In this document: positions 18,294-51,138 of the stretch, one piece after another | Numbering within the stretch: position 1 is the first letter of the stretch | How the letters are laid out: each line of letters begins with the position of its first letter | Assembly: GCF_028009165.1 (NCBI RefSeq) | Contig: NC_079246.1 | Location: 3,782,001-3,846,000, forward strand | Reading direction: 5' to 3' | Source: Akanthomyces muscarius | Lineage: Eukaryota; Ascomycota; Sordariomycetes; Hypocreales; Cordycipitaceae | Length of the DNA: 64,000 nt | Translations under genes and position numbers: made by a program | Notes under the pieces: generated by a model | The model's database searches: none | Seen by the model: only the letters and a program-made list of their open reading frames with translations | Told to the model about the DNA's origin: nothing

Positions 18294-18395
18294 TGACCAC
18301 AAACTCCATGTGGCTAATTTATAATCATGCACGGTAAATACTATTTAATCTACATTTATATCTCGTATCCGCTGCTCCGCATGCGAACCAGGTAG

Positions 18396-18557
18396 CTAAA
18401 ACCCGCCGCGCCCCGTCTCACAAAAACTACCCAGGAGCACTTCCAGGCTATCCTTCAACTCGATAACCATTTCCTTCTCGACAATGTCCTGCTGCAACGA
18501 CAGCGCAATGGTCATGCTTCCTCTTAGCGAGCTCGAGACACTCACCCCCACAGCCAT
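18396..18557 (-). pseudogene. Fragment, possible end of a condensation/acyltransferase-type protein
   Basis: A 53-codon minus-strand frame reads MAVGVSVSSSLRGSMTIALS and then LQQDIVEKEMVIELKDSLEVL. The pattern of a short strand followed by an amphipathic helix resembles the last part of acyltransferase or condensation domains, but the match is short and from memory. No upstream exon is visible. Confidence 0.25.
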
Positions 18558-18637
18558 ATCTAGCTGTCTAAGGATTATAGGTCATTCTGTCAAGCTAACC
18601 ATTACAATCGGCTACTGGACATAAGATCGGACCAGGG

Positions 18638-18834
18638 CTAAGAGCAATTGATAGACACAAACTTGACATCGTCAGAGAGCATGACGCCGTTGCTATCCTT
18701 GCCCCTTTCGACCGTGACCGTCTCGCGGTAGTCGCCGCCACAGGTGTCCCCGTTGCCATTCCCCTTAAAGGCGAATTCGCACTTGGCAAAGCCCACGTTA
18801 GCCTGGACCTTAAAGTCGCCGCAGATTTTACCCG
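18638..18834 (-). pseudogene. Last exon of a small Cys-containing protein, cut off by the RIP island
   Basis: Minus strand, from an acceptor-like ACTAG at 18835-18839 to a TAG stop at 18638. It reads CTGKICGDFKVQANVGF, then CEFAFKGNGNGDTCGG and ends DVKFVSINCS. Cys spacing suggests a secreted disulphide protein. The upstream exon would lie in AT-rich decayed DNA and was not found, so the gene is probably truncated. The family is not recognised. Confidence 0.3.
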
Positions 18835-18952
18835 TGCACTTCTAGTATAACTTAATATAATAACTATAAATAGTAATTATAAAGCTTAAACTTATTAATA
18901 TAGTAATTTAATATTAAAATGAAGTTAGATCTAACTTACTTTTTTAATAATA

Positions 18953-20010
18953 ATATAGTTAATAAGTGAGTCGCCTAGATAAGCAAGTCGCCTATTTTAA
19001 CCCACTTATTTACTAAAGTTAAAATAACTCTATAAAAGTAAAGCTAAAATAGTTAGGCTTTTAGATATAATATATTAAGTTATTAGACTATTTATAATAA
19101 AATAGTAATAATTATAAATAAATAGTAATTATATATTATATTAAATAATATATATTAGATTTAATTCTTTTTTAAATTGTTTTTAAATTTAATAACCTTT
19201 TAGTCTTTATATATATAACTATAAAACTTAATAAAGAGCTTTAATAAAATTATATATAGTTAGTAAAGTTTAATAAATAATTATAATTAATTCTTTTAAT
19301 AAGTTATATTAAAAATAAGAAATCTTCTTTTATTTTTTTATTTTTCTTATTTAACTTATTAAAAAAATTAACTATATTCTTTTAAGCCTTTATATCTATT
19401 TTTATTATTATAGTATACTATAATTCTAGGAATATAAACACTAAGTAAAGCTATATACTAACTTATAGAAATATTCTATATACTCTAATATTAAGGTATT
19501 ACTCCTATAAAGGTTATATATTAAATATTAGTATAATAAAAAGCGCCTTTAAGTAATTAATTATAATCTTTAAGAATTAAGTTAATTTAGGTTAAGTTAC
19601 TTTATATAGGTTAAATTTACGTCTTATATATTATAGTAGGGGCCTTAATAATAAGTTATTATTATAGGTTAAAGGAGAATACCTAGAAGGGCAATTCCTG
19701 CCTATAAATATAGGGCTTTATAATTAATTAATTATAATATTTTAAAAATATATTATATTAAAGGAAAAAATTCTACTACTTATTATAAGGTATTAGGCTT
19801 TTATAGTTATAATATAAGGGTAGTATAACACATATATATTAAGTATATTATCTAGTATTATAATACTATATATTAAGAAGATATTTTATTTTTAAATAGA
19901 CTAAAAGATAATTAATTTTAAAAAGAGTTTAAAAAAGAATTAAATCTAATTATTATTAAATTAGTTATTTAAATTTAAATACTTAATATAAAGTATTATT
20001 TTTAGATATA
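18953..20010. mobile_element. TIR-transposon fragment C
   Basis: Starts with ATATAGTTAATAAGTGAGTC followed by GCCTAGATAAG, next to TA at 18951-18952, the same end type as the better preserved elements A and B. The opposite end was not found. Inside, about 19158 and 19950, lie inverted copies of a segment containing AGATTTAATTCTTTTTTAAA, suggesting a further small inverted-repeat element of about 0.8 kb. Confidence 0.45.
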
Positions 20011-20168
20011 ATATAGTTAATAAGTAAGTTACCTAAATAAATAAGTTACCTCTATTTTCTAACTCTATACCTTTTAACTATTAATAACTTAATTATAATA
20101 TAAAAAAACATTTAAAATTAATTAAAATCCTCTTCCTTACTAGTATTTATATTTATAATATAAGTATA
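20011..20168 (-). mobile_element. TIR-transposon D, left part
   Basis: Starts at a terminal repeat (ATATAGTTAATAAGTAAG, TA at 20009-20010). The next 140 bp match, inverted, the right-hand end of element A (for example CCTCTTCCTTACTAGT and ATTTATAATATAAGTA). The element is broken at 20169 by the insertion of A; its other part resumes at 31172. Confidence 0.6.
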
Positions 20169-21270
20169 TAATATAGTTAATAAGCGAGTCGCCTAGATAA
20201 GTAAGTCACCCACTCTACCTAGTTTTTAGCACCCTTTATTTTAGTACTTCTATTACTTAATAACGATTTATAGAAATCTCTTTAAAAGAGGTAGGTATTA
20301 TTCTTACCCTTTAAGCTCTTAAAAAAGACCTAAAACTAAGTTATAAAGAAGCTATATTAATCTATAATATACCTTAAATAACTATCTATAACTAATATAA
20401 TAGCTAAGTTATATAATATAACTTTATACCTAATTTAAAGAAACTTACTAATTTAAAAAAGAGAGCTATAATAAAATATATTCTTTAACTAGATTTATAA
20501 AGACTTCCCTTTTAGTATATAAATATAGAAGATATAGTAAATTAACTACTTATTAAGTATAATAGTAGATATATTAGAGTATACTAGGTAAAAAACCTTA
20601 TATAATAATAATTAAAGCTTATTATATATTTTTAATAGAGATATAATTATTAAAAAACTAAATATTAAAATCTAATTATTATTTATAATTAGTTTATACT
20701 TTTAGAGAATATAATTATAAAATATAATATTATAAAGTCTAATATTTATAACTTTAATAAGACTAGATTTCTAATAGGCTTTATTATAATAAGAATAGTT
20801 ATTATAAGCTCTAATTAGGTTAGAAAAGTAAAAGTAATATAACTTAGTAATAGGGAATAAGTTACTATAATTTAGGTGGTAAATTCTTAGGGCTTAATAG
20901 TACTACTATATATTATAGTAAAAAGCTAAAAATACCTTATATTTTAGTATAAAGATAAATACTTACTTTTAGAGTAGTATATTAATATAAGCTTAAATAG
21001 CTAGATAATAAATAAAATTAGTATAAATTAGATTAAATATTTTAATAAATATATAAAAGATTAAAAAAAGAGTAGTTATTATCTTCTAATTCTAGATAGC
21101 TATAAAAGTTACTACTTAATTACCTTTAAGCTTTTCTATTAAAAAAAGAATATTATTACCCTTTATATACCTATATATTCTTCCTATATACTCTAGCTTT
21201 TAGATATTAGCTATTTTAATATACTAAAAAAGGCTTATAAGTAATAAATTAAGGATCTTATAAAAGCTAG

Positions 21271-21517
21271 TGTTATAGACTAGCCCTAGGGTGTCTATAA
21301 ATAGGCGTTATAATTATTATTAACTCTCTTAAGGAGAAGAAAGAGAAGAAATAGGAAGATAGTAAGCCCTTTCTATTTTATAGTAGTCTAGGTTTTATAT
21401 AAAGTTAGTGTGGAGTTTAGCTAGGGTCTTAATAAAGTTAACCCTAAGCTTAGCTAGTTAACACTTAATCTATACTATCTTAGTTATAATAGTAGGCTAA
21501 AGCCTAGTACCTTTATA
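21271..21517 (-). repeat. 3' LTR of the gypsy element
   Basis: 247 bp; begins TGTTATAGACTAGCCC on the plus strand and ends CCTTTATA, where the expected terminal CA has become TA by RIP. Nearly the same as 28283-28529. Confidence 0.85.
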
Positions 21518-24500
21518 TACCCCCCCTATTTATCCCCCCCTTACTAACTAGTAAAAACTTTTTTTTTTTTTTAGTATATATTATTCTTAGGCTCCCTAAG
21601 TATAGTGTGGAAAAATATAACTCTAGTAGGGCTATATATTACTATTAGCTAGGGGTTAGTGGGTGGTAGTTAGTGATTATATAGCTATAACTAGGCCCTA
21701 CCCGCTCTTTTAAATATCTAATTAGGCCTTTATTATAAACTATTATATAATATATAGTACTATCTAGGTGCTTTAAGTATAAATAAAGTGAAGTAATTAT
21801 AAAAAGGTAAACTATATAGTAAAAAGACTATACCCCCTTAAAAGAAATATTTATAATAATAAGGTTTTTATTATAGCGCCTAATAGTATTTTCCTTTTTT
21901 CCCTCTATTAACTATTTTATTTCCTTATAGTACTATACTTATATTACTTTATTCCCTTCTTACCTTAATAATATTCTTATTATATCTTACTATATACTCT
22001 TCTAAACTAAATAACTTTCTTTATATATTACTATATCTTTCTCCTAGCCTTAATAATATATCTACTACTACTATACCTCCCCCTCCCTCTCCCCCTAGTA
22101 AGAATAGCCGTAACCTAAATATTAGGTATTATCGCCCCTAATATTCCCTAACTAGCTTTATTATAAAGGGTAACTCTAATAGTGATAAATTTATCTTAAA
22201 TAATAAACTTAATATACCTTACCTAACCTATCTTAAAGGCACTACTAATAATAGTATACTTAACTACTAACTAGGGCCTAAGGACGCCTATATATTTTAT
22301 AATAGTAGATATTAAACCTATAAATAGGCCCTTACTATTTTTATAATAAACCCTACTCTATACTACCTTATTTATAATATATAGTAGATTTATAATTTTA
22401 GTAAGGCTATAAAAACTCTTACTATAAGTAAGTTAGGGGAGAAGGGCTCTAAAAAGGCTATTTTATAGCCTACTATAGTGCGCCTTATTTAATAATATTA
22501 TAGTGCCTTAGATACTACTATACTCTACCCTATCCTTATTTAGGATATTTTTACTCCTTATTATCTTAGCCCTAGTACTAATAAGGGCGCTACTACTACC
22601 TTATTATAAATAGTACTCCCTACTAGTTCCCTAGGTAGAAACTATACTAGCTAAACTAATATTATTAGTACTACTAACACCTTTAATTAGCTTAGCTAGA
22701 ATATCTAAGCGCTTATAGTGTATATTCCTAAAAACCCTCTTTCTCCCTTACCTTAGTATAATCTATCCTATTATAGAATTACTACTAATTTAATTATACT
22801 CTTAGGAAACCCTATACTCCCACACTTATATCTAGGATAAGCGTAATATACACTATAATAAGAAGAGTATATATATAAATATATTATTAGTAGCTACCCT
22901 TATATACCTAACTACTCCTATACTCCTATTAATACCCTCTTATCGCCTCCTAAGCTAGTATAAGTATAATTCTTATAGCTCCTACTCTTTATATTATTAT
23001 TATAAGTCTTATTCTTAATCGCCTTCTAATAGGCATTCTAATTATTACTATTTTAATTACTATTATTATTCCCCTCACTATTTATCTAGCCGCCTATATA
23101 GTTACTACTATTCTAACTAAACTTATAATATTAAAGACATAGACCTTAATAAGTACCTTAGAGAATTAAATAAGGTCCTATCTAAAAAGGAAATAAAATA
23201 GTAGTTCCTAATTAGGGTGCCTATTAGGGTAATTAATTTTTATATTATTATTAGTATATATACTAAATAAACTAGCTTAGAGTTTAGGGAATTATTTATA
23301 ATTTTTTTTTCTTATATTAGTTTTTAGTATTATAAGTTTAGATTAGGTAATAAAGAGATTAAGGTATAATATTAATAAAGCTATAAGTCTATAAAGTAGC
23401 CCCCCCCCCTAAAATATTATAATATTAATTATTTCCTATTACTTATACCTATATATCCCCTAATTATTCTATTTTACCTATTTATTATAGCCTACTATAG
23501 TGTACTTATTATATACTATTATATCTATTAGCTTCGCCCTAATAAGCCTTAAATATAGCTAATATTAAAGTGTTCTATAAGGCACTAAGTGGCTCCTATA
23601 TTAGGTCCTAAAAGCCTATCTATTTTACTAAGACTTCCCTTTTTCCACCCTAGCCTCTAGTATTATAGGTATAAAGAACCTCCTTAATAACCTATTTTAG
23701 GTATTAGTTATCCCCTAATTTATTATTAACTAAGGTTAGCTTAGGCGCTTAATTATTCTACGCCTAAAATAGTAAGGGGTCTACTACCACCTATTTAACT
23801 AGGTTAATATAAAATATCTTATAGAGGCTCCTAGGTAGGTCTAATATTACTATTAATAGACTTAGGGTAACTATAATATAATATTTAGAGCGGACCTAAT
23901 TAAGCTTTTTATTAGGATAGTTAGTTATAATATTATATAAAGATAGCTATACCTAATTACTAATCTAGAATTTTTCTACTAGATACTAGTTTTAGTTAGA
24001 CATTTCTTTTTATTATTATTATATATAGGTAATAGTAGACTATATTAGGTTATTATTATCCTTAATATATTATAAGAACTATTAGGCGTGGCCTATTAGT
24101 ATTTTATTTAATAGGTGTGGGTTATTTAGGTATAATTAGACTACTTTAATATTATATCTATATAAAAGGAAGTTTAAGTTAAAACTTATAACACTTAAGT
24201 CCTTATTATTAAGGGCATATTATACTATAAGAAGTTATTATAACTAGTTATATTATAAGTAGAAGATAAGTACTCTTAGGACTACCTACACTTCTTAGTT
24301 AGCGTGTTCTATACTACTATCTATCTAGGGATAATAGGTAGTAGATAAGAGTTATAATATATCTAATAGGTGGCATAATATTCTCTAGAACTAACTAACC
24401 TAATCTAATTTATAGTTACTAATAAGTTAGTCTAAAAAACTATAGAAATACTACTATATATAGAGGAATTATTTTATACACACTTTAGTACTTATTAATA

Positions 24501-27500
24501 TTATAGCTTCTAACTAGATATATTTTAATAGGTAGTCTATAATAACTATAAGGAAATATAGTTATTCTAGTCTTTCACTTAGTAGATCTATTATAAAATT
24601 AACTAAGATTTACTTCTAATATTAATTTATAGTTAGGATAGGCTATAAGAGGCCTTAGTATAATTACCTTAACTTATATATACTATAATAAGGGTAATTC
24701 CTAATATAATATATTATATCTTATAATAATCCTAACTAGTAATAGTCGCGAATTAATATCTAAAATATACTATTCCGCCCTAAGTGCACTATTATATTAG
24801 ATATATAAGCGCGTTTAATAAGTATAGTTATTAGGGGCTCCTAACTAGGTACCTATATATAGTTATAAAATTAGAGTATCCTATATACTAAGATAGTATA
24901 GTCTATTATTTACTCCCTATAATTTATTTTAAATAAAAAAGAGTAAGCTCTTTCTTAAATAACTTTTACCTTTTCTATATAGGATATATTTACCTTTAAA
25001 CTAGTCTTCTATAAAGTTATTAAACTTTTATCTAAAAAGGGGGATAAGGAATAGCTAGATTTAATTACTATAATATTAATAGACTTTAAGATCTTAGTTA
25101 AGGGTTAATTAAGGCTATCCTTAAACTATTTAAGGTAACTAAGAGCGTTAAGGTAAGCTATAAGGGGGCCTAGTTAATAGTATAATTAGTATTAAAATAA
25201 AGATAAGAATTCTAACTATTATACCTACTATTTAGAAATAACTTATAGTTTAGTAAAGTATTTAAGGTTTTTATAGTTAGTAAGGATTATAAATATATTT
25301 TCTTATCCTTATAGCTTAGCCTCTTAGGCTTTTAGATATACTATTATAATAAGGAGTTTTTTATTATAGATAGTATAGTTATATTTAACTAATAAGAGTT
25401 TAGCGGAATAGTATACTACTAGGTGTAGAATATTATTATTATCTACCTATAATAGATAACTACTAAGCCCTATTCCTAAATAATCTATTTTAATAATTAT
25501 ATTCTAATTAGGATCTTATAGGGTAAGGTAGAGATTAGATAAGAATAAGGACTTAAGTTACTTAAAAGTGTTATCCTCTTACCTTCCTTATATAAATAGG
25601 ACGCCCTTATAGGTAAGATATATTAGGGGTTTAGTAAATAAAGAGAAATTAAAAATAAAATCCCTATAAAAGTTTATAAAGCTAAAAAAGCTATATACTC
25701 TATATACCTTAGTAGGGGCCTCTTACTACTATATAGCTTTAATCTTCTCTAGGTCTAGTTTAAGCGATTTCCCTACCTCTACTATAAACCCTAGGTACTT
25801 AACATTTATAACTAAGAATTCACACTTATTAATATCTAAAAATAGTCTAGCTTTTACTAGCTTATCTAATACTACCTTAACCTTTTCCTTATATTCTTTA
25901 AGTATATCTAAGTTATAGATAATTATATTATCTAGGTATATAGATATAAAGTTATTAAGTGTCTTACCTAGAGTCTAGTTAATATAGTATTAGAAACTAG
26001 TAGGAGTACCTATAAGCCTAAATAGATATATAAGCTACTTAAAAAGGCTAAAGTAGGTATAAAATACTATATACTTTTTAAATCTAAAAGCTATATATAG
26101 CTAATAGAAAGCCACTTAGATGTCTAACTTAGTAAACTATTTTACTATTAAGAATAAATATAGGGTCTCTTTAATAAGTAAGAGAGGATATTAGTCTTCT
26201 TTTATAATTATATTAAGGGCCTTATAGTCTATATAAAATCTCTATTTACTATTAGGTTTTTTAATAAGTAAGATAAGTGCTATAGCTAGTAAGGAACTTA
26301 TATAGATCTAGCCCTTATTAAGTAGGGATATAAGTTATTAATATAGCTCTAATAATTATTTATATAATATTTAATATAGGCGCCTATATAGGAGTTATTT
26401 AGGCGTCCTATTAGCTTTTCTCTTAATATTAATTATATAATTAAAGCCTAACTAATTTAGTAGGAGGCTTAATATAGTGTCTTCTAAAAACAGATTAGTA
26501 TATTCTTTATATTAAGTTAGAAGCTATTTCCTAGGGGATAAGGACTTCTATAATAAGGAGTTAATCTTAAAGATACTTATTATAAGTACTAGAACTTCCT
26601 AGCTAGTTTCTATATATTTATATTTTAATACCTTATAAAGTTAGTATCTATTAAGGAATAAGTGTCCTTATACTTTTAACCTTTTATCTAGTATATATAT
26701 TTACTAGTCTAGGGTTAATTAGGGGTATATATAGCTTATACTTATATCTAAGACTAGGTTATAGTGTCTTAATTATAGAAGGCCTAAAATAATAGAGTAA
26801 GCTAGTAAGGGGATAATATAAAATAGTACTAGAAAAGACTAGCTATTAATATTAATACTTACCTATACTATATAAGAGACTATAAACTTAAGGCCTTTTC
26901 TTATTACTAGTTAAATATTTCATTTAGTAGGTAAAGGTATAAGTTAAAGGCCTAATTACTTAGTTATACCCTCCTAAATAGCTCTATAATAGTTATAGTC
27001 TAAGTCTATAAAAATATTAAGTAAAGTAGAAGCCTCTAATATAGCTAGTATTAGGAAGGGTTAAGTATTTATTCTTTTTTTTACCTACTTTTAAACTATC
27101 TTATTCTATAACTTAGTATTTAGTATATTATTTAAGACTAACTATTTTAGTTACTTTAAAGGGAGACTTTTTTTTAGGGTTTATTATTTTCTAAGCTTAT
27201 AGTGGATTTATTAGGTTTTAAGCTAGTATTTATTTAATTAATACCTATTAGGGGGAGGGCTTATATAAACTTATATTTCTTAATATAGTATCTATCTTAC
27301 CTATATTAAAGATAGGCGCTAGATTCTTATTATATACTTATAACTTCTTATAAAACCTATAAGGCTTACTTTTACTTTAAATTCCCCTAGATATTTTAGA
27401 TAGTAACTAAGGGTAGTATTAGGAGTATATTAATTCCTATTATAATAAAGTCTCTTTTATAATTAATATAATATTAGCTTCTCCTATTTAGGGGTGGTTT

Positions 27501-28282
27501 TAATATTACTTTAATCTAGTAGGATTTTAGGTTAACTATAAAGGATTATAGCTATTATATAGTAGTATTATAATAGCTTCTAGAAACCCCCTAATTAATA
27601 ATAAAATATCTTATAATATCTAAGAGTGTAGGATAAAGTTTATCTAACTTAATCTTATCTACCTATAATAGACCTCCTATTAGGGCTAGCTATTACTTAA
27701 AGTGGATATAGAACTTAGAGAAAGACTCCTATTCCCCTTATTATAGTTAACTAATTCTACTTAAAGTAAGTTCCTATTAGTGTAGGTTATTAAACACTCC
27801 ACTTAGATAATAAAGGAAATTATATAAATTAGTATTACTATATTAGCCACCCTCTTTAAAATATATAATAACTTTTTATTAGGCTACTAGGCTAAGATTA
27901 TTCTAAATATATATAAATTAGGACTTTAGAGGGCTAATAAAGTCTATATTAATTTCTAGCTTATACTTAATCGCCTTTTTCTAACCTTAGAATAAATCTA
28001 ATTTACTATTATACTTCTCTTTAAGTAGGAGAGGTTTCCTCCTAGGTATATAAATATTATTTCCTAGTTAGATTAGGGGGGCCTATATAGTATAATAGGG
28101 TGGATTCCCTATACCCTATAGGGCTTAGAGTTATTCCTATACTACCCTTATCTAGGCTTATATAAGTATATTTTACTCTTATAGTGCTTTATTTTATTCT
28201 TAGAGAGAATAGTATTTATTTAAAGGCTCCTTATAGGTTAGGTAGCCTTCTATTTTATATTCCTTTAGTAAAAAGAGTTAAT

Positions 28283-28529
28283 TATTATAGACTAGCCCTA
28301 GGGTGTCTATAAATAGGCGTTATAATTATTATTAACTCTCTTAAGGAGAAGAAGGAGAAGAAATGGGAAGATAGTAAGCCCTTTTTATTTTATAGTAGTC
28401 TAGGTTTTATATAGAGTTAGTGTGGAGTTTAGCTGGGGTCTTAGTGAAGTCAACCCTAAGCTTAGCCGGCTAATACTTAACCCGTACTATCTTAGTTATA
28501 ATAGTGGGCTAAAGCCTAGTACCTTTATA
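28283..28529 (-). repeat. 5' LTR of the gypsy element
   Basis: 247 bp; matches the other LTR but keeps several G/C bases that are A/T there (for example GGAGAAGAAATGGG and GCCGGC), so the two copies mutated independently. Confidence 0.85.
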
Positions 28530-28590
28530 GCTAGTATTATATATATTACTAAAAAAGACTTCTTCTTTATATTCTTTAATACTTTTAATA

Positions 28591-30450
28591 ATATAGTTTA
28601 TAAGTAAGTAGGCTACCTAAGTAAGTATATCACTTTATATTATTTTTTAATTAACTATATTTAAACTCTATTAACTTAATAGGATAAAATAGTTTTAACT
28701 CTAAATAAAAAAGATATTATTAATACCCTTAAGGCTTTAAAAAAAGACCTTATATTATTACTCTAAAATATAACTTATATCTATAATATACTATAAATAA
28801 TACTAATATATTATTAATAAGAATAATTAAGTTAAGCTAATATAATAATATACTCTTAAAAATTAATAAATAAAGAAGAAAATCTTCTTATTTAGTATAT
28901 TCTTAATCTAAATATATAATCTTAACTACCTTACTTATATAATATAAAAGCTATAACTAACTACCTACTAGAGCTTAAATATAATATTCTAATTATAAAG
29001 TATTAATTTATAAACTTTATTAGGTAATATTTAGAACTTATTATATCTTTATTATATTAAATTAACTATTAAAGAGTCTAATATAAAGATTTAAAGTAAT
29101 ATTAAGACTAGTTTTAGCTTATAAAAAATACTATTATAAAATATAATATATAAAAGAGGGAGATTTATAACTTTAATAAGATAGGATTTATAATAGGCTA
29201 AATATTATTTAAAATAGTTATTATAAGTATAAAAAGATATTAAAAAGGTTAGAAAATATAATAAGGAAATTATATTTAGGTAATAATAATAGAGTATATT
29301 AGTATAGCTAGTATTATTATTCCTCTATTTATTATTATTATAAGTAAAACCTACCTCTCCTTTTAGTATAAAAATAGCCCCTTACTTTATAACTAAGCTA
29401 TTTTTATTACTAAAAATAGATAGACTATAAATAAGAAGTGCTTAAAATAGTTTAAATATTTTAATCTATATATAAAGACTAAAAGAATTAGTAAATATAA
29501 GCTATTAATCCTTAATAGGTATAAAGGTTATTATTTTATAAACTTTAAGCTATATTATAAAATAAATAATATAATTATATTATATATACTTACTTATTTA
29601 TTATATATACTTTAACTATTAGATATTACCTATTTTTAGTTATTAAAATGTATATATAGTAATATAATTAATAATCTAATATATATTAAAGTTACCTATA
29701 TTACTAAAAAAGAATTCTTTTCTATAATTTACTTAATATATAAAGCTTTTATAACTAAATTAAATATCCTTAGTGGTTTTTAAGGCGCTAAGATTTATCC
29801 TTTTAATTTAGAATATATTATTTTATAGCTTAATATAAAGTTATAAACTTTATTACTCTTAGTACTACTAATAGTTAAGAACTTCCCTAACTTCTAAAAA
29901 CCCCTAATAACCTAATAGAGACTCTATCTTAAATAGAATATATTAAAAAAAAGATAAGAATTTATTAGAGTAGCTTTTTAAGTAAAATTATTATAAATAT
30001 CTCTTAGTTATTAAAGTATATAATAAAAGTAATATAATAAATAGTACTAATATAAGAATAAATTAATAAGCTAGAGGTAATAAATATATAACTTTCTTAG
30101 TATTAATATATAAAAAAAAAACACTTATAGACTAAAAGATCTCTTACTTTAAAGGCTAGTACAAATTTAGCTATTTAGTTATAGGGGAAGGGTAAAAGAA
30201 GATATAATAAGTCTAAAAGTCTAGGTTTATTAATATAGCCTAAGTTATACTATTAGTACTATAATAATTATAATAAAATTAACTATAATTCTAGGATATA
30301 TAAAAAGATAATAAAAATCACTTTTTTAAATAATTATAATTAATTTTTATTAACTAGATTTTATTTTAGTTTATTAAAGTATATTTTTTATTATAAGGTC
30401 CTAAAAAGTAGCCTACTTATTTAGGTGGCTTATTTACTTATAAACTATAT
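28591..30450. mobile_element. TIR-transposon B (1860 bp), RIP-mutated
   Basis: Ends ATATAGTTTATAAGTAAGTA at 28591 and its inverted partner ending TAAACTATAT at 30450, flanked by TA (28589-28590 and 30451-30452). Size and TA duplication fit a Tc1-mariner/Fot1-like element of the same family as A. The flanking sequence ACTTTTAA / TA / ATACTTTT shows that it sits inside element A. Confidence 0.75.
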
Positions 30451-31171
30451 TAATACTTTTAATAAGTCTTTTATTAAGGAAAATATCTAGGGTGGTTTTT
30501 AAGGCACTAAGATTACCCCTTTTAATCCTAAAAAGGTTATTTCTACCTTAGAACTTAAGTTTATAATACTAAGTCCTTTAAACTTATATCTAAGATTAGC
30601 TAGGTCTTAGGTCTTTTAGATATTAAGTATTATTACTAAAATGGTTTTATAGTCTTTAATTCTAAAAAAACGAATTATTAATCACCTAAATAGCTCTCTA
30701 ACTAAAGTCTTAATATACTTAATAGTTTTAAAAAAGGTATAATAGTTATTATATACAAGGTTACTCTTTTATATATATAGGTATATACCTTTAAGGCTAT
30801 AAATAAGCTACTTAGTAAGTATTAGTAAGCTAAAAAGACTAGACTATAAACTAAAAGATCTCTTTTTATATAAGATATAAGAGATTTAAAAGAGTAAATA
30901 AATATAAATAGTTAAGTAAAGAATAAAATATAGACTTATAGTTATTATAAAGTAAGGGTTAAAATATATAGTTAGTAATATAGTATATATAGCTAGATAG
31001 GATATAATATATATACTTATATTATAAATATAGAAACTAGTAAGGAAGAGGATTCTAATTAGTTTTAGGTGTTTTTTTATATTATAGTTAAATTATTAAA
31101 GGTTAAAGGGTGAAAGGTTAAGTAAAGTGGCCCGCTCACTTATCTAGCCCGCTCACTTATTAACTATATTA

Positions 31172-31440
31172 AGTATATTAAGACTTTTACTTAAAAAGCT
31201 ATTTAAGTAACTAATAATTTATTTCTTTAAAATTAAATATTATAAGATTATTTTATTTATTATACTTAATATCTAAAAGACTTAAAATCTTACTAATTTT
31301 AAATATAAGTTTAAAAGACTTAGTATTATAAATTTAAGTCTTTAAAATAAAAATAACTATTTTATAATTAAAAAAGGTAATTCTAATACTTTAAAAACTA
31401 TTTTAAATATTTTCTTTTATAATAAACTTATTTGTATTTT
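31172..31440 (-). mobile_element. TIR-transposon D, right part (truncated)
   Basis: The reverse complement of this stretch follows 30,500-30,735 of element A closely (for example CTTAAATTTATAATACTAAG against the A copy). It continues the element begun at 20011 and then loses similarity near 31440. Compared with A it lacks about 270 bp at the insertion point. Confidence 0.5.
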
Positions 31441-31626
31441 TTATCTAATATATCTAATATATCTAAGAAATTCCTTATATTATAATAAATAAGGAAAGCT
31501 ATTCTAGATCTACTAACACTATAAATAGAGAGATAATATAATAGTTAGTAAGATAAGGCTAGATACTATAAAGGAGTAACTAGTCCTATATAAGTAGGTT
31601 TATAAAAGGAGAATTAATTCTTTAAT

Positions 31627-31675
31627 ATATAGAAAGTGTATAGAAAGTATATAGAAAGTATATAGAAAGTATATA
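31627..31675. repeat. Short tandem repeat, unit about 12-13 bp
   Basis: ATAGAAAGTATATAGAAAGT-type units repeated about four times. Probably derived from the neighbouring AT-rich repeat DNA. Confidence 0.7.
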
Positions 31676-31764
31676 GATTAGAATTTCGCTATATAGAATA
31701 TAGAATATAGAGTATAGAAAATTATATATAGATTAAATAATCTATACGCGTATAGATAGAAAGC

Positions 31765-31866
31765 CTGCTAGTAGCCTCGCTAGTGTTATTTACAAAGAAA
31801 CCAGGAGGTGGTCTTGAGTTCTGTGTCCACTACCGAGCACTCAATATAATAACCATCCAAAACTAA
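31765..31866 (+). pseudogene. Ty3/gypsy reverse-transcriptase fragment, not RIP-mutated
   Basis: Plus strand reads [20 protein letters not shown] and LNIITIQN, then a stop. This is the first conserved block of gypsy reverse transcriptase (family form: LFVKKPGGGLRFCVDYR...). Only about 30 residues remain. Its normal base composition contrasts with the RIP island that ends just before it. Confidence 0.75.
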
Positions 31867-32241
31867 TACTGTTGGAAGCGCAAGGCTTCTATCGGGCGAG
31901 ATATCACGATGGGTAACGAGGTTATTCCGGTATAATGTTGATGCTCATTCATAGTCCTCTAGCTATGGATAACGTACGACTGAATTGGTGTTGAGACCAC
32001 CCCGCGTGAGGTCTGTTTCAGCCACTGTTTGAGGCCATTCGCACTGACTCCGCCGTCCGAGGTGGCGGCGGAAGCAACAATCAATGATCTTGAGAAATTA
32101 ACACCACCACTAGTTTTGCAGCAATTTTGGTGGGAGGACGTTTTCGGATTAGCGCATTAATAGACATTCTTAAACCTTTGTGGAAAAAAGTACAGGTACA
32201 GTATAGGTCTATTTATGTATTTCGAAAAGACCGACTGCTTA
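31867..32241. other. Intergenic, no gene seen
   Basis: Normal composition, no coding sequence recognised; it includes the 3' flank of the GH55 gene. Confidence 0.45.
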
Positions 32242-43115: not shown

Positions 43116-43590
43116 AATGTCGCGTGTTCTATAGCAACTTGATGCTAGATCTTAATTAGAAAGTATTCAGGAGTATCGGTATCCGTATGCCAGTGAGGAT
43201 TGGCAACCGTTAGTCCGGTTCTTAAAGAGGGTTGAGAGTTACAGCTTGGCTTCGCACCACATGCACCGGTTTATTATGGGCCTTTGATCACATGACAAGT
43301 GAAATATACGGTGACAGAATCGCGCTTTGTGAAATTAATTAATGTATTTAAAGAGCGACCTTGGACCCTCCAAGGGCTGCAACCTTCCAGGCGTTCGCAG
43401 AGTGGGCACTGTTTAGCAACAATGCCTATTAGCGAACGAATCCGCTCCACGTGTTTGTGTTTTTGTTTTCTCATGTCTTTGAAAGAGGAAAAGAGGAAAG
43501 TTATCGTTGGCAAACAAGTTGGCTCTTTGGTGCCCATGGTGGAGTCGGGATTTGTCAGATCGAATTTGATTTGATTTGACTATTACGTCC
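43116..43590. other. Intergenic, no gene seen
   Basis: Promoter of the hypothetical gene at 43115 and flank of the large transposon. Overlapping short frames on both strands have no features. Confidence 0.45.
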
Positions 43591-43598
43591 GTCTGCGC
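43591..43598. repeat. Target-site duplication, left copy (GTCTGCGC)
   Basis: GTCTGCGC directly before the left terminal inverted repeat; the same 8 bp in the same orientation follow the right repeat at 51131-51138. The three bases before it (TCC) also match, so an 11-bp reading is possible. Eight to eleven bp fits Mutator-like elements (8 bp would also fit hAT). Confidence 0.75.
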
Positions 43599-43670
43599 GG
43601 GGGACTAGCTCACTGGTGGTGGTCGTAAAGCTATTGAAGGTTCAGGTGGGGCAAAAAGGCAAAAAGCGGT
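43599..43670. repeat. Left terminal inverted repeat
   Basis: Starts GGGGGACTAGCTCACTGG and runs through GGTGGTGGTCGTAAAGCTAT to GGTGGGGCAAAAAGGC. It aligns over about 70 bp with the reverse complement of 51060-51130, which starts GGAGCACTAAGCTCACTGG and contains GCGAAGCTATTGGAGG and GGTGGGGCAAAAAGCGG. Confidence 0.8.
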
Positions 43671-43946
43671 GAGTCTTGACCGCATATGCAATGCATATGC
43701 AATGGACGTACTGTGCGCTTGTCGGAAAGCTCATCTGCATACGCCATGCATATGCCGGCAGCCAGCTCTGCATATGCCCCCGGCCATAAATACGGTGTAG
43801 AAGAATTCTCATGCTATGGCGCAAAAGACGGTCAGAAAATTGAGTGAAGAGATAACAAGGAGAAAAATGATAAAGCACATAAGCCTCGCATATGCCATAC
43901 ATATGCTATTATCACACACAACAAAAATCAACTTCAATATTATTAC

Positions 43947-46900
43947 ATGATGTCATCACCAGAGTCAAGCGCGGTGAACCCTTGGGGGCAGCTGTTTCAG
44001 CATAATGAGGTAAGAATACCCTAATAAGGCTCTGGGCATATGCTAACAACATCAAGGACCTATTCGCCAACACTCTCGAAGACGATGACCCTACAAGCTT
44101 TTTTAATATCCCGAAAGAGATTATTGAAGAGTCTGGGCTTATGCTCAGTGGGCGCGGAGCGCGTGCTGTGAGCGTTCGCAAAGTGATTGATTGCATTGCT
44201 CTTCCAAGCTATCCAAAAGCATCGATGGATGGATTGGTATATATTATACCAAATATATCCCCGACATATGCTGGCGATAAGGTTGAGGAAGTGACAAACT
44301 TCATACAAGAGCAAATGAGTATTGTAAGTAATACTGGGCATATGCCAGTGCTATGCTCACTATCTACTAGGTACAGTTTGGTTCAACTCGGGTTGGCAAA
44401 TGCACAACTGTTTCTCTGGTATTCTTGTGAGTAAATTCTTCAAGTGTGCAGATGCTGAGCATATACTGACTAGAGATAGGGAGCAGATGCTTGGAAAAGG
44501 AGCGCAGGCACAGTGCTGGCATATGGCCTTCAAATGCACTGGAATACGAGTCTGCTCAAAAATCAAGCAAGATCTTATAACCTACCAAGACGACTGGAAT
44601 AATGGTTTTAACCCAGAGAATATTGGCCGCATACGCCAAACATATGCCACAAGTATTGATACCATGGAGATTGACGAACGCACACGAATGAAGACGGAAG
44701 CAGCATACCTGGCATATAAGAAGATATGGGATAGTTCACGACGCCCTTGTCGGCTACTCCCTGTATCAGAAGACCCTGAGAGTCTACCAGGCATATGCTG
44801 CGAAGAGCAACTAATGACCTGGGTCCAGACTGACGGGCAGTACTTTATTGGCTGTCCACAAACATCGAATGAGGCCTGTCAGCACACACAGCTCCGAGTT
44901 GTTATTGGTAATATTGACCTAGCATATCTTCAGCATATGGTCGAGTATGGGTTACACGAGCCCGAGGAGCCTCTACGCGATACTTGCTCTTTTTGGGATG
45001 CCTCAAATACACGGAGAAAGGACTGTGGTAAGTGATAAGAATATATAGAATGTAGAGTGAGCATATGCTAATAATATATAGTATTTCAGCATAAGGATAT
45101 ATCCCGCCTACGTCCACACAGTTGCCGTGTTAAATTTGACGTCTACATACCAATTAATAACCGCCGTTTCCCTTGGTATATGCTCAGCACACGCGACGTC
45201 CATACCCACGTTCCACCGCCACCAAAAAACATACCACAAGATATTCTTAAACATCTTATTTATGCCCTCTCTGAGCGAGATGATTTATTATATCTAACTG
45301 CTCGTAAGTATTATTCTATACTATTTAAAGCATATGCTAATAACATACCCTATAGGGAAAATATTTTTAAGCCCTTTACTTAATGAATTCCTTAAAAAGT
45401 ATAAGGCTAAGAATATTCGGAGCATCCACCCAGCATTGAATTGTGAGGATAAAATACATGCAATACTTATACGTGCACGATTCCTTAAATACCCTGAGGG
45501 TAATGATATTGCAGGTAAGTGCTATTTAGAATGTTGTGGGCATATGCGCTAACCATGCTAGGTGTACAACGAGAATTCTGCCTTGACCAAATCCGTGAGC
45601 CAAACCAGCAATGGATACGTGAGATCAAATTCTACGGCTCTGAGTATTGGATCATCATATGCTCAAAAAGCCAGGCTTCTGCTGCTCAGAAGGCAAGATG
45701 TATACAAATTGATCTATCTTTTAAGATGATTCGAGGGAAAGCAAATATTCTTAGCATCTCAAGCTGGAATGACACTTCTAATCGTAAGCATATGCCCAGT
45801 CCAGATAATACCTATCTCTAACCTACATATCTAGTTCGCGAAACATATATTTATGCTATAACAACAATCACAACTACAGAGGCATACACTGATGTAAGTA
45901 AGTGCCCAGCATATACCCAGGACACTACTGATCTAAATAGATGTTCGCAGCAATGTTTCGGTGGCTTGGTGACATTGGTGGCTTTAGCATACGCTGGCAC
46001 CATCTCGAGCATATGCCACACGGAAGACCTCCTCCTATGTTCTATACAGTGACGACAGATATGGATGGGAAGCAAGCACATGGTGAGCAGCTACACAGCA
46101 TATACGGAGAATATAGCTAATATCATTAGGACTTGGCAATTACTTACAAAGTCTTGATTCACGATGGACCTGGCAAGAACATTTAGAGCATGTGCTTATC
46201 TTCTGCCAGGTACATGTCCAACGGAACTGGCGACATAACCATCCTGATGCTCCTGATGAGTATACATATATGTCGCTCCTAGACTCACCATCTGCTGAGA
46301 TCTATAATGAGGAAGTACGTCAGCTTATTGAGGCACACCCTGAGAGAGCAAGTTGGTTTAAAGCAAAAACAGCTCCCTGGGTTGTTGCTGGGCTTGTTGC
46401 AAGTGCCTCAAAGGTGCCTCCAAAATGGCGATTATATGCTCAGAAGAATACGAATATCGCAGAGAGTGGCCATTGGGAAGACTACTCTGCTGTAGGACAG
46501 CACCGCAGCCTACTATCAGGTATCCTAGGGCTACGTCAGCATGTGCTGGAGAAATGCTTCAAGGTCCAAACACAAACAGACCTAGGAGTAGCAGTAACAT
46601 GGCATAATCGAGGGCCTGTTGCCCGCATAAGCCGAGCATATCTTCGACGAGATACTACTAATCGCATAGCGCAAGATCGACGTATCTCTCAGCCAAACCT
46701 ACCCCTTAACCCACGGAATCCCTACCATGTTCGACCCGAAGGCTCAAGCCCTGCGTCAGCATATGCCTCCGATACACCAACAACTCCTGTCCCACAAAGA
46801 TCCTTGCAACCCTCTGAGCCCCCGTCCTCAACAGGTTCTGGGCACATGCCGGCAATCTCTTCGTCACAACACACAATACAGGCCAACAACGTAGGCCTAT

Positions 46901-47673
46901 ATGATGCCGAGAATACACGTATAACACCACCTACTCCATCACCACAAAATATACCACAAGAAGATGTGCAGACATTGGCGGAGCATATGCCTGCACAACA
47001 ACCGGCATATCCGCAAATACAGGGGACAGGTACGCCCCGGCCCTCCTCGGCAGTCGGTAGGCATACGCCCAAAACCGATGGGGCATCAACTGCATTACTA
47101 GAGCCTCTCACAGCACCAGCACTAGTTAGGCATATGACTGTAATTGAGCTTAATAGCCTGTTAGATAGTGATCAGTTGGAAACAATCGATCTATCTACAG
47201 TCCCAGCCGCGGGCATATGCCAGGATGATGATCTATCAATCATCAGTATAAGAGCTTTAACACCAAGCCGTATTAGACCAATTACTGATGCAGATTGTAA
47301 ACCAGTAAGTAATAGACATAATATAGGCATATTCCCAGGACTAACTTTCTCTAGGAACCAAAAACACCACAACAACAAAAACGGGATCGCTCTAGCTCAT
47401 CAGCAACGTGCTCACTACCATCAATTTCTCAGATATCTCTACGACCAAAACGGCCCCGGCATATGCCAGAGATAGATCAATTTGATGATGCTGAGATTTC
47501 TGCACTTCTTCTACAGCAGAAGGTGGTCAGAGAGGAGTATAAAGATCTTATTCAAGAGGATATTCAACATATAAAAGAAAAGTGTCAAAGACTCAGACAA
47601 GGTATATGCTTAAGAGAGTTTTAAAAGATACTTAACTAATTTATATATAGGAAAGGAAAAAAGAATAAGCTAG
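43947..47673 (+). CDS. Putative DDE transposase (Mutator-like) of the palindrome-array element
   Basis: Thirteen exons: 43947-44009, 44057-44236, 44282-44323, 44371-44426, 44474-45027, 45082-45303, 45356-45514, 45562-45783, 45835-45893, 45941-46082, 46130-47304, 47355-47601, 47651-47673. The 12 introns are 45-54 bp and all junctions keep the frame, giving 1047 aa. Possible zinc-binding segments: FKCTGIRVCSK near residue 145 and CRVKFDVYIPINN...HTHVPPPP near 315-350. Catalytic core: CIQIDLSFKMI (Asp about 476), FYTVTTDMDGKQA (Asp about 559), CQVHVQRNW (a C-x2-H as in Mutator transposases) and NTNIAESGHWED (Glu about 678). The C-terminal 300 residues are Pro/Ser-rich, with a basic RPKRPR and a final coiled-coil-like helix. 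Every intron carries the palindrome or a near copy. Confidence 0.75.
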
Positions 47674-47727
47674 TTTTTTTTCGTTTTTTTACGCTAGATT
47701 GAAAATTAGATATTAAATAAGTATATG

Positions 47728-48744
47728 CTAGGAAAATGCTAAGTGGCTTACTTGTGATAACTTTTGTAAAGCCCGGGTAGTCTTTTTAGGTGAAGTAGTT
47801 GCGTAGCATATGCTCTGCGACTTATTAACTCTTATCACGGACTCTGTAGAGGTAATATCCTCAGGCATATGCTGACTGCTAGCTGTGTACATTCTGGCTG
47901 TGTCCTCAAGTGAGGAGTCTGTGTTAATTGTGGTGTCTGGTTGACCGTTGTCTGAGCATATGCTGGTTTGATCCCGCTCTGATCGTGTGGTTGTAGGATC
48001 TAATGTGGGAGAGACTGGCACACCGTGAGCATATGCACACGGTGTGTTGAATGTATTTTCGAACAACATCTGTCGGAAACTTGAACGATGGAATTGTCTA
48101 CCATATTTCTGTGCAAATGCTAGGTCTTGTTGGCTATAAGATTATTAGCATATGCGTATAATATGAATAGTAGATACCTACGCAAGATACTCAAGCTCAG
48201 TCGCTACCTTATATAAAAATGAGGTCTTTGGTAGGTTTTTTGGCTCACGCTGGTACCGAGCATCACGCCAACCGCCATTGAGAACCCAGGCGCGAATAGT
48301 ACTACTAAGTGTAAGCATATGTCACGTCTATTCTAAAAGAATACTTACTTCTCTCCAATTAGGCGTTCTTCGTCTGATATATTCGCCTTATTTGGGAGGC
48401 GGATATGGTAGGGATGTGCTGTTCGAATGTGACGATAAAACTAAAGTATTTGATAAGTATATCCCTAGCAAGCGCCTGGCATATGTTAGGCCACCTACAT
48501 TCACATTCTCAGTATATACCCTTCCACACATTCTGCCAGTACTGTTGACAATAATATCACAAATGTGTGTGTTGACACGGGAGAGAATTTGTGTGTTTTT
48601 CTTCTCAACTGGTCCTAAAATAGAGTTAGCATATGCTGATAAAGTGATATAAATATTCTGACCATGATGGAAGCCAAACTTTGATGGATTTGATGCATTT
48701 ATCACATCAATATCTGTATACTCTAATAGAAGTTGTCGCGCCAT
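47728..48744 (-). CDS. Second protein of the palindrome-array element, unknown function (265 aa)
   Basis: Five exons, 48744-48663, 48614-48520, 48440-48349, 48304-48182 and 48133-47728, introns 48, 79, 44 and 48 bp, all in frame. It starts MARQLLLEYTDIDVINA and includes RFYRHIRTAHPYHIRLP and AWVLNGGWRDARYQREPKN, then FAQKYGRQFHRSSFRQM, ending in a Ser/Thr-rich tail with RVNKSQSICYATTSPKK. No known domain recognised; the His/Cys/Arg content could suit a nucleic-acid-binding role. It is convergent with the transposase gene (54 bp apart). Palindrome copies in its last exon are read through as CAYAHG, SICSD, QHMPED and SICYAT. An accessory transposition protein is an inference. Confidence 0.6.
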
Positions 48745-49301
48745 CTTACAGGAATCTCAGTAGAAGATGTAAGGAGGAAGAGGGGTATATGCCTGATTAA
48801 TTTCTATACTAGGCGGGACGGATTATTATTAATCCATAGCTTACGCATTTTTCCTCCGCATAGAAATATCTTTATAGTAAGCATAACTTATAGCGAGCAT
48901 ATGCTAGATTACGAAATAACCTAGTAAGTGTCCAGGGGCTGCCTGCCCGCTACTAGCCCGTATTATGTATTGGAATTTCAGCATATGCCGAAAAAAAGTT
49001 GACTGCCTCGCCGCGCGGTCTGTAGGGTAGCCTGCCTGCCTTACGCTAGCTAGGCGCAGCTGGCAGCCTGTAGCCGTTTAAATCTCTCGGCATATGCTCA
49101 CAACATGCACATGAGGGACAGAAAAGATTGGGAAATGACTTTTTATTTTTCGGCATATGCCGAGGGTATCCTTCCGGTCTGCTTGCCGGGAACAAAAACA
49201 TCGCCGCCTGCCTCTCAGCATATGCTGAGCACCCTCCTGAAATTCACGAAAACAACAAAGCAAAAAACTGTCCAAGTCCCGAGGAAAGGCTGGGCATATG
49301 C
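48745..49301. other. Spacer inside the transposon between its second and third genes
   Basis: 557 bp without a supported gene; six exact palindromes lie at 48897, 48981, 49090, 49153, 49218 and 49294. It must contain the promoter of the 265-aa gene and the 3' end of the 280-aa gene. Confidence 0.5.
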
Positions 49302-50950
49302 TCAGGCCTTGTTGGCGGCAGCCTTCTTGGAAGGCTGGGCCTGGCGCGTGGAGGTGCGCGTAGCAGCTATTGATTGTCAGAATGCTGTCAGCATATGCTC
49401 GGCGTACTACTTACCAGGGGCGGCACCCTTGGTGCCCGTGGCCGCCTTGTTAAGGCGGCGCTTCTTCGACGGGGCTATTTGTCGAGGGTCAGCCTAGAAC
49501 CTTGTGGGCATATGCTCAGATACTTACGGGGGGGGCCCTGGGAGGGGGAGGGGGAGCGGTCCGGGACAGCAGCCTATTACTCGTCAGCATATGCTCAGTA
49601 CATGTTCGTAGTGATTAATACTTACACCGCGGCCGCGCTTGCGCGGGGTGGTCTGCGCCTAGAAAAAGTATTATTATCTTGAGTACTCGGCATATGCTCA
49701 GACTAAAACTTACAGCAGGCGGGGAGCGGTGGAAACGACCAGTCTTGTCGCCGGTCGCGGCGCGCCAGACGGGATCAGCGCGACTAACATTAATCAGCAT
49801 ATGCTCAGCTTGTTCGCACAGGATTCTCTACTCACGCCTTGGCCTCCAGAAAATCCGCGATCTTCTGGATCGGGCCGCCAAGGGGACCGGCACTAGAGGT
49901 TGTTAGCTCAGCATATGCTCAGACGGTTTCTTTCACTTACCCGGGCTCGTCCAGGAAGGCGGCCCTCTTCCACTCCTGGGAGAGGACATACCAGAGGAGG
50001 GAGCTATCACGGGTCAGCATATGCTCAGCATCGGCCTGAAACTACTTACCGGCGGGCGGTGGCCTTGTCGGCGGTGGTCAAGTTGCGCCGACCGGAGGAA
50101 ACGGCTACTGATGTCAGCATATGCTCAGAACTTACTTGGGCTTACTTACGGTCGAAGCCGTGCATCGTCTTGATGTGCTTCTTCATCTATTTTTTTTGTT
50201 AGCCCGGCATATGCCCGGAAGATGCGCAACACTTACTTGGCCGGAGCCACCCAAGAAGGCAATCACGGTGCCACACATGACGCCAAGCTCGTTCTTGACG
50301 CCGCACCTTTTGAGAATTAGCTGGGCATATGCTTATGCTCAGTATTACTTACACCATGGTGTTGACCTTGGCGATCTGAATCGAGCCTAAGAAAATTGGT
50401 CAGCATATGCCTGGAATCGGTTGACAGGGAGCTTACGGAGGGGGGGGTGGTGGCCTTCGATGCCCATGTCGCCTAGAAAAAAATTAGTATGTGGGCTTTG
50501 AGCATATGCTCAACCCGTGCTTACCGCAGTGGATGCCAAGGGCTGTCTCGCTGGGTGCCCCAACGCAGTTGACCAGCTCCTGGTCAGTGAAAGTTGCTGG
50601 GCATATGCTCAGTACATGTTCAAGTTATTGTACCACACAAAAACTTACTTCCGAAAGAATCCATCTGCATTCGTTAGCATATGCTGAGTGTACTCTAGGA
50701 ACAGGGGTAAACTTACCTTTGATGATGGCGGGGGGGCGCGCGCAGTTGTTGTATATCTACTACCTGTCTAGTCAGCATATGCTGGGTGCTTGCTTCGGGG
50801 GCAGGGCCTGCATACAGAATTTGATGATGATGAAGAAGAGAGAAAGGAGAAGAGGAGCAGGATCTAGGCATATGAGTTAATTGTTCCTAAGCACTGGCCA
50901 GGGCACGTGAGGTATCTCAAAGGAAGTGAATTCATTGTGATCTTTTTCAT
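49302..50950 (-). CDS. Third protein of the palindrome-array element: 17 micro-exons, Cys/His finger and basic tail (280 aa)
   Basis: Seventeen exons of 16-70 nt: 50950-50907, 50863-50816, 50767-50717, 50664-50649, 50579-50525, 50472-50437, 50386-50353, 50306-50237, 50186-50150, 50107-50050, 50003-49941, 49892-49836, 49783-49714, 49658-49626, 49573-49528, 49474-49415, 49366-49302. All 16 junctions (introns 42-69 bp, mostly GTAAGT donors) close one 843-nt frame. A possible zinc finger lies at about 96-127 (Cys96, Cys106, His122, His127; GQMKKHIKTMHGF). Then comes a helical region with SLLWYVLSQEWKRAAFL, and a Pro/Ala/Lys/Arg tail with TPRKRGRG (AT-hook-like) and SKKRRLNK (nuclear signal). Fifteen introns carry one exact GCATATGC and the first a one-mismatch copy. 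It may bind DNA, perhaps the palindrome itself (inference). The first two exons are the least certain. Confidence 0.65.
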
Positions 50951-51059
50951 TGTCTATTGCTCAGATCAACTTCAGATCAGAGTAACAAAGAGGCATATAC
51001 TAATTTGAGTGAAAAGGCGGGCACCTTGCATATGCAGAGCATCTGCAGCAGAGAATCAT

Positions 51060-51130
51060 TTTTCTGCCGCTTTTTGCCCCACCCTAGCCTCCAATAGCTT
51101 CGCCACCACCACCAGTGAGCTTAGTGCTCC
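51060..51130. repeat. Right terminal inverted repeat
   Basis: Inverted partner of 43599-43670, about 80% alike by eye with one or two small gaps; the blocks GCTCACTGGTGGTGGT and GGTGGGGCAAAAAG are exact. Confidence 0.8.
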
Positions 51131-51138
51131 GTCTGCGC
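51131..51138. repeat. Target-site duplication, right copy (GTCTGCGC)
   Basis: Exact copy of 43591-43598 directly after the right inverted repeat. Confidence 0.75.

Follow-up and report, generated by a model that had tools for sequence, protein, structure and literature searches.

Introduction

Transposons of the En/Spm (CACTA) and Ac types carry many transposase-binding sites, none of them beyond the subterminal few hundred base pairs, and introners are introns with a short stretch of sequence in common, found in connection with transposons. Precedents among plant CACTA and Mutator elements were also cited in an initial annotation of the locus studied here, made from the sequence alone; the precedent that appears closest, the anti-silencing of Arabidopsis VANDAL Mutator-like elements (MULEs) by VANC proteins, was not named there. 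According to PMC5735166, VANC21 binds the motif YAGTATTAY in introns, intergenic and terminal regions of VANDAL21 (Hiun), and we regard this pair as the closest working model by analogy (PMC5735166 and PMC10398659, both in part). In the yeast Yarrowia lipolytica, the element Mutyl is described in sections of PMC6446971 as having 9–10-bp target duplications, 22-bp terminal inverted repeats and a second gene of C2H2 type, MutB, with a DNA-binding role. Here, we analysed a 64-kb stretch of Akanthomyces muscarius DNA (contig NC_079246.1, 3,782,001–3,846,000; hereafter the window), which holds a Mutator-like transposon of 7.5 kb with copies of the 8-bp palindrome GCATATGC from end to end.

Results and discussion

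The palindrome was found 46 times in the window, compared to 1.09 ± 1.10 expected and a maximum of five in 100 shuffles. Forty-five of these exact sites lie within the transposon, spanning positions 43682–51035, which corresponds to 5.98 per kb against 0.02 per kb in the remaining window; sites with one mismatch number 35 in the transposon (4.65 per kb) and nine in the remaining window (0.16 per kb). The initial annotation had reported at least 45 palindromes in a 7.5-kb transposon and, from 48981 to 50775, one palindrome per about 94 bp, and both values agree with our positions; its statement that the rest of the window has none holds with the exception of a lone exact site at position 40444. 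GCATATGC forms the centre of a less strict palindrome, in many cases RGCATATGCY and extending up to TGAGCATATGCTCA, with R before and Y after the core in 36 of the 45 exact sites.

Counting the motif in transposon, window and genome, a check set beforehand, demonstrated that it is not equally dense elsewhere. The host genome contains 831 copies in 36.19 Mb; without the 227 in five transposon copies free of repeat-induced point mutation (RIP) and the one in an end fragment (C10), 603 remain, and the resulting 16.7 per Mb matches the 17 per Mb implied by the window shuffles, i.e. a background rate. Pairs of GCATATGC spaced 30–60 bp apart occur at 27 places in the genome, 26 of them inside transposon copies, and for pairs 70–100 bp apart this applies to 48 of the best 50 of 74 places. 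Given the background frequency outside the copies, we rejected the idea that the host genome, or its introns, are rich in GCATATGC as a rule. A small minisatellite at C2:573923–573988 holds three GCATATGC and is unrelated to the transposon family. None of the papers listed in our literature searches describes a fungal transposon with an array of GCATATGC; only one of these searches was aimed at the 8-mer itself, and the single listed paper containing it concerns maize tryptophan synthase.

The features of the locus are as follows, with the basis of each in brackets:
43599–51129, no strand: transposon, 7,531 bp (target duplications and copy alignment)
43590–43598, no strand: left target-site duplication, CGTCTGCGC (identical 9 bp on both sides)
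51130–51138, no strand: right target-site duplication, CGTCTGCGC (identical 9 bp on both sides)
43599–43658, + strand: terminal inverted repeat of the left end, about 60 bp, with weaker similarity to about 100 bp (alignment of ends)
51070–51129, − strand: right terminal inverted repeat (alignment of ends)
43682–51035, no strand: motif array, 45 exact GCATATGC and 35 one-mismatch sites (count by position)
43947–47624, + strand: transposase model, 1,056 amino acids, 10 introns (gene model and relative P0001)
47728–48744, − strand: m1 model, 288 amino acids, C2H2-like, 3 introns (gene model and Pfam search)
49301–50664, − strand: m2 model, 238 amino acids, m1 paralogue with a basic AT-hook-like tail, 13 introns (gene model and annotated protein P0002)
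50665–50763, − strand: possible extra upstream m2 intron with a motif at 50677 (suggested by P0002, which starts MLTRQ-MDSFG)

The array extends through all parts of the transposon: 13 exact sites are intergenic, 20 intronic (six in the transposase gene, one in m1 and 13 in m2), 11 exonic (six in the transposase gene, five in m1, none in m2) and one lies at the m2 stop codon. Each of the 26 modelled introns carries the motif, either exactly (20) or with one mismatch (6), the latter being confined to the transposase gene (four of ten introns) and m1 (two of three). In m2, all 13 introns contain an exact site, while its exons (GC content 0.67) contain none; shuffling of synonymous codons gave a mean of 0.00 for these exons, so the m2 protein is hardly able to encode GCATATGC, and it is the intronic sites which keep the density level there despite the motif-free exons. 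When one mismatch is allowed, all seven sub-regions of the transposon have 8.8–20.1 sites per kb, compared to 0.21 per kb in the remaining window taken without its AT-rich tract. These 80 sites have a mean gap of 93 bp and are distributed evenly, with a coefficient of variation of 0.57 versus 0.98 for random placement (none of 20,000 simulations was as even). The analyses of spacing and location took the transposon to stop 10 bp before its actual end, and these 10 bp hold no motif.

Exonic sites exceed what the encoded proteins would call for. Under synonymous-codon shuffling, 1.79 sites are expected in the transposase exons, compared to six observed (one of 2,000 shuffles reached six), and 0.84 in those of m1, compared to five (none of 2,000). 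As for reading frame, the exonic sites use all three and encode AYA, xIC (GIC/SIC) and HM (HMP). Both the use of three frames and the excess over the synonymous-codon expectation indicate a constraint on the DNA and not on the peptide; selection at the peptide level was ruled out, as every frame is used.

The likeness to VANDAL21, as far as described in the excerpts of PMC5735166, comprises a transposon of Mutator type that has further genes in addition to the transposase gene, and one short element-specific motif distributed over several kb of introns, intergenic DNA and termini. The VANC motif, however, is non-palindromic (YAGTATTAY), accumulates as tandem repeats and is non-coding, being absent from the coding probes tested (PMC5735166, in part), whereas the present motif is an 8-bp palindrome with 11 exact exonic sites, and Tandem Repeats Finder (TRF) detected a single tandem array of 11 bp × 2.1. 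A tandem-repeat origin of the array was ruled out on account of this sole TRF array. VANC proteins moreover contain DUF1985/DUF287, while the accessory proteins here are C2H2-like; m1, m2 and the transposase gave no Pfam match to either DUF at E ≤ 1. The other protein family, the lack of tandem repeats and the exonic sites thus set the array apart from the VANC system.

The transposase has a D-D-E layout with a C-x2-H-x2-RN motif (D487, D568/D570, C601-x2-H604-x2-RN608, E687), which we take to be the signature of the Mutator superfamily. All of these residues are invariant in the alignment with P0001, a metagenomic protein (33% identity, E 7.8e-128, 75% of the query) and the sole transposase relative found among 3,427 candidates. 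Together with the 9-bp target duplications, the layout points to a member of the Mutator superfamily on sequence grounds; MULE duplications range from 8 to 11 bp and usually measure 9 bp, and terminal inverted repeats are likewise present (52 bp at 86.5% identity, right side 51121–51070; 103 bp at 78.6%). Pfam searches returned no family for the transposase at E ≤ 1 and none for P0001 at E ≤ 10, comparison with PDB chains gave no relevant match, and a search of NCBIfam yielded nothing useful.

The proteins m1 and m2 are paralogues (30% identity over 127 amino acids, E 1e-11). In their alignment, the C, C, H, H pattern of m1 is present in m2, which additionally has the sequence PRKRGRG, an AT-hook-like pattern, and a basic tail. 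All three m1 introns share position and phase with three m2 introns, and all three intron pairs contain the motif (≤1 mismatch). P0002, an NCBI-annotated protein of A. muscarius, is 98% identical to m2; some of its exon junctions differ from those of our model, and it has an additional short exon upstream; the m2 start codon that it implies (MLTRQ...) is an ATG within the GCATATGC at 50775–50782. A further relative of m1 and m2 was found in Gnomoniopsis smithogilvyi (P0003, 31%, E 2.1e-12), while a search with the m1 protein gave no match at E ≤ 0.1. Searching the host genome with P0003 gave no match either, an empty result of little weight, and a weak m2 match at C1:5317045 (E 0.033) showed nothing recognisable. 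The transposon resembles Mutyl and the Hop group in being an ascomycete Mutator-like element, and it may resemble Mutyl in having an additional gene of C2H2 type, with two paralogous genes here; the likeness is drawn from published descriptions (PMC6446971, in part), and on our side it relies on a zf-C2H2 match of m1 below the curated cut-off (E 0.0081) and on m2 only via its alignment with m1. The passages on Mutyl in PMC6446971 make no mention of a motif array.

Six full copies of the transposon are present in the genome, each flanked by its own 9-bp target duplication: the window copy and five others on contigs C1, C2, C3 and C4 (two, C4a and C4b), which are named after their contigs. Relative to the window copy, C2 shows no difference along the 7,531 bp, C4a is at least 99.8% identical, and C3 and C4b are 99.4–99.8% identical. 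These five non-RIP'd copies carry 45, 45, 45, 46 and 46 exact GCATATGC; a stretch of 50-odd bp with one motif is present in C4a, C4b and C3 and missing from the window copy and C2. C3 and C4b have in-frame stops (three TAG) within the transposase region matched by P0001. Set against the other three copies, they also have in common 24 differences of the C-to-T or G-to-A type (a count made by eye), which cluster in the 5' half, are mostly at TpG and resemble light RIP, with the motifs spared. Comparison of the motif positions between copies, as put forward in the initial annotation, placed them at (almost) the same sites in all five; since the copies are more than 99% identical, this reflects shared descent and provides no independent evidence. 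Judged by its sequence, this Mutator-like DNA transposon has been active recently. Two related fragments, on C10 (278 bp of the right end, 98.9% identity, one GCATATGC) and on C11 (about 96 bp of terminal repeat, 79%), are solo ends, with neither a partner end nor a motif cluster in the 9.9-kb stretches on either side.

The sixth copy (C1:6921.8–6929.4k, L033) is 81–82% identical to the window copy and differs by 753 C-to-T and 606 G-to-A changes, all other types amounting to at most 14 each; with 85% of its CpA dinucleotides changed, it bears a RIP-like signature. All 46 motif sites in this copy are mutated, mostly to GTATATAC (30) or GTATATAT (10), and the array thus gave it no protection from RIP. 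A shield acting in cis, the anti-RIP signal considered in the initial annotation, was thereby ruled out for this copy. The RIP-like copy contrasts with another A. muscarius isolate, for which parts of PMC11354060 report RIP indices not indicating active RIP and no rid alleles.

If selection favoured the occupancy of a whole element by a DNA-binding protein, a palindrome kept evenly whatever the coding status of the DNA would be the expected outcome. Starting from the array, its restriction to the transposon, its even spacing, its use of every reading frame and the gene content, all of which are direct observations, we infer that GCATATGC is bound by a protein, and we see an even chance that this protein is encoded by the element and serves in self-recognition or anti-silencing. 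The binder would be a DNA-binding protein made by the transposon, probably dimeric, and the likeliest candidates are m1 and/or m2 as paralogous C2H2-like proteins. With sites every ~90 bp, it would occupy the whole transposon, including introns and those exons whose peptides permit the motif, and this occupancy would mark the transposon as self. The purpose may be exclusion from silent chromatin, i.e. a VANC-like anti-silencing, or to keep the transposon in a condition that allows it to be transcribed and to transpose. The coating protein or self-recognition tag proposed in the initial annotation is in line with an array across introns, exons and intergenic DNA, with its evenness at ≤1 mismatch and with two C2H2-like genes; evenness of the exact sites, in turn, did not reach significance. 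In the transposase relative P0001, AYA is the commonest tripeptide and occurs five times versus 0.11 expected (none of 20,000 shuffles), while the scrambled controls AAY and YAA occur twice and not at all; in total, nine motif-encodable peptides were counted versus 0.70 expected. Most of them are not aligned with the sites of the window transposon, which hints, at the level of peptides, at a lasting motif with moving sites.

Several observations weigh against this reading. For exact sites alone, the coefficient of variation was 0.83 compared to 0.97 for random placement (P = 0.13). The gene models are our own predictions, m1 matches zf-C2H2 only below the cut-off, m2 has no Pfam zf-C2H2 match at all, and the AlphaFold model of P0002 is not usable (mean predicted local distance difference test score 35.5). 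P0003 contains no motif-encodable peptides, and neither does m2. Among the five near-identical copies, one of 29 variable substitution columns falls into the motif columns (368 of 7,580), with about 1.4 expected by chance, so the copies have no power to detect purifying selection. In the RIP-like copy, CpA was mutated more often within motifs (94/100) than elsewhere (800/959; p = 0.0035), and when the GCAT context was matched the values were 89/94 and 71/79 (p = 0.26). Outside the host, enrichment of GCATATGC in the P0001 gene is suggested through peptides, as P0001 is known as a protein only, and a motif-rich contig of fungal appearance (L097, described below) gave no tblastn relative of the transposon proteins; its array could stem from repeats arisen by chance or, in other fungi, from a factor of the host.

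Could the array be bound by the transposase, or by the N-terminal part of this protein, for end-finding, synapsis or copy-number sensing, with m1 and m2 otherwise employed? The densest stretch of exact sites is at the left end, with five motifs in the first 348 bp (14.4 per kb), and P0001, the sole relative found with motif-encoded peptides, is a transposase. En/Spm and Ac likewise contain many short sites that are bound by a protein of their own. The sites of these transposases are subterminal, however, whereas those described here run through the entire 7.5 kb and are no less regular in the m2 gene, which lies 5 kb from the left end, than close to the ends. We thus consider binding by the transposase unlikely.

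Somewhat less probable still is a host protein, be it a silencing factor, an insulator or an architectural protein, that binds the motif in an array exploited by or imposed on the transposon. In its favour, the contig L097 (NYXK01000082.1, 4543–7190) holds 21 GCATATGC in 2.7 kb, partly as a 63-bp tandem repeat and without long open reading frames, and no relative of the transposon proteins was found there. L097 is fungal-looking and filed under a deltaproteobacterial metagenome-assembled genome, of which another contig, L126, has four GCATATGC. It emerged from scans for triple motifs, which returned 27 stretches from viral collections and 62 from prokaryotic genomes; in tblastn (E ≤ 0.01), none of these 89 matched the transposase or any of P0001, P0002 and P0003, and alignment of the transposase against viral contigs confirmed no relative. 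Several of the eight densest stretches are CRISPR-like (clustered regularly interspaced short palindromic repeats) or minisatellite arrays; in the prokaryotic CRISPR-like arrays L098, L101 and L079, GCATATGC recurs every 61 bp, in L098 and L101 inside GCATATGCGGGG. A host binder is hard to reconcile with the background frequency of the motif outside the transposon copies and with the rarity of clusters elsewhere in the genome (one of 27 places at 30–60 bp and two of the best 50 of 74 at 70–100 bp). Besides, a target of silencing would be expected to be selected away and not retained in exons and introns.

The presence of the motif in every modelled intron, together with the fact that in many introns it runs into a branch-site-like CTAAC/CTGAC, could speak for a signal at the level of RNA or splicing, such as a branch-site enhancer, an intron definition element or an introner-like spread. 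Yet the motif lies anywhere between 4 and 39 nt from the 3' splice site, 25 of the 45 exact sites are outside introns, and m2 introns are no more alike outside motif and splice sites than shuffled ones (mean pair score 3.73 versus 3.62; 53 of 200 shuffles as high). Unlike introners, they share only the motif and splice signals, and the motif is equally found outside introns. These three findings rule out a splice or branch-site signal or an introner origin as the sole explanation, and we hold such a signal to be improbable. A functionless motif, which tandem duplication, gene conversion or slippage had multiplied and which had not been removed since, would suit five copies too alike for purifying selection to show and a 50-odd-bp stretch that differs between them, but it is very improbable in view of the single TRF array, site flanks unrelated beyond a few bases, the exonic excess, the even spacing and the recurrence of the pattern in P0001 at 33% identity.

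Returning to an element-encoded protein that would occupy the array, we tentatively suggest that selection for even site density has shaped the genes themselves. Exons would then carry the palindrome in any tolerated frame, and the GC-rich m2 would have been cut by about ten further introns, each a landing pad for one site. On the same tentative reading, self-recognition by a fungal C2H2 protein would be independent of VANC, and intron number would be set by binding-site density. If true, this would be a second origin, in fungi, of sequence-specific transposon self-recognition, with a different type of protein. It would also provide a small transposon in a culturable fungus, whose palindrome makes binding tests simple, and a simple computational screen for transposons saturated with one short word. 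How does a selfish element keep dozens of sites inside its genes, are introns kept for reasons of DNA rather than RNA, and do such proteins oppose fungal silencing? These are the questions that would be opened.

Outside the transposon, the AT-rich tract of the window (18000–32000, GC content 0.21–0.32) is consistent with heavily mutated repeats.

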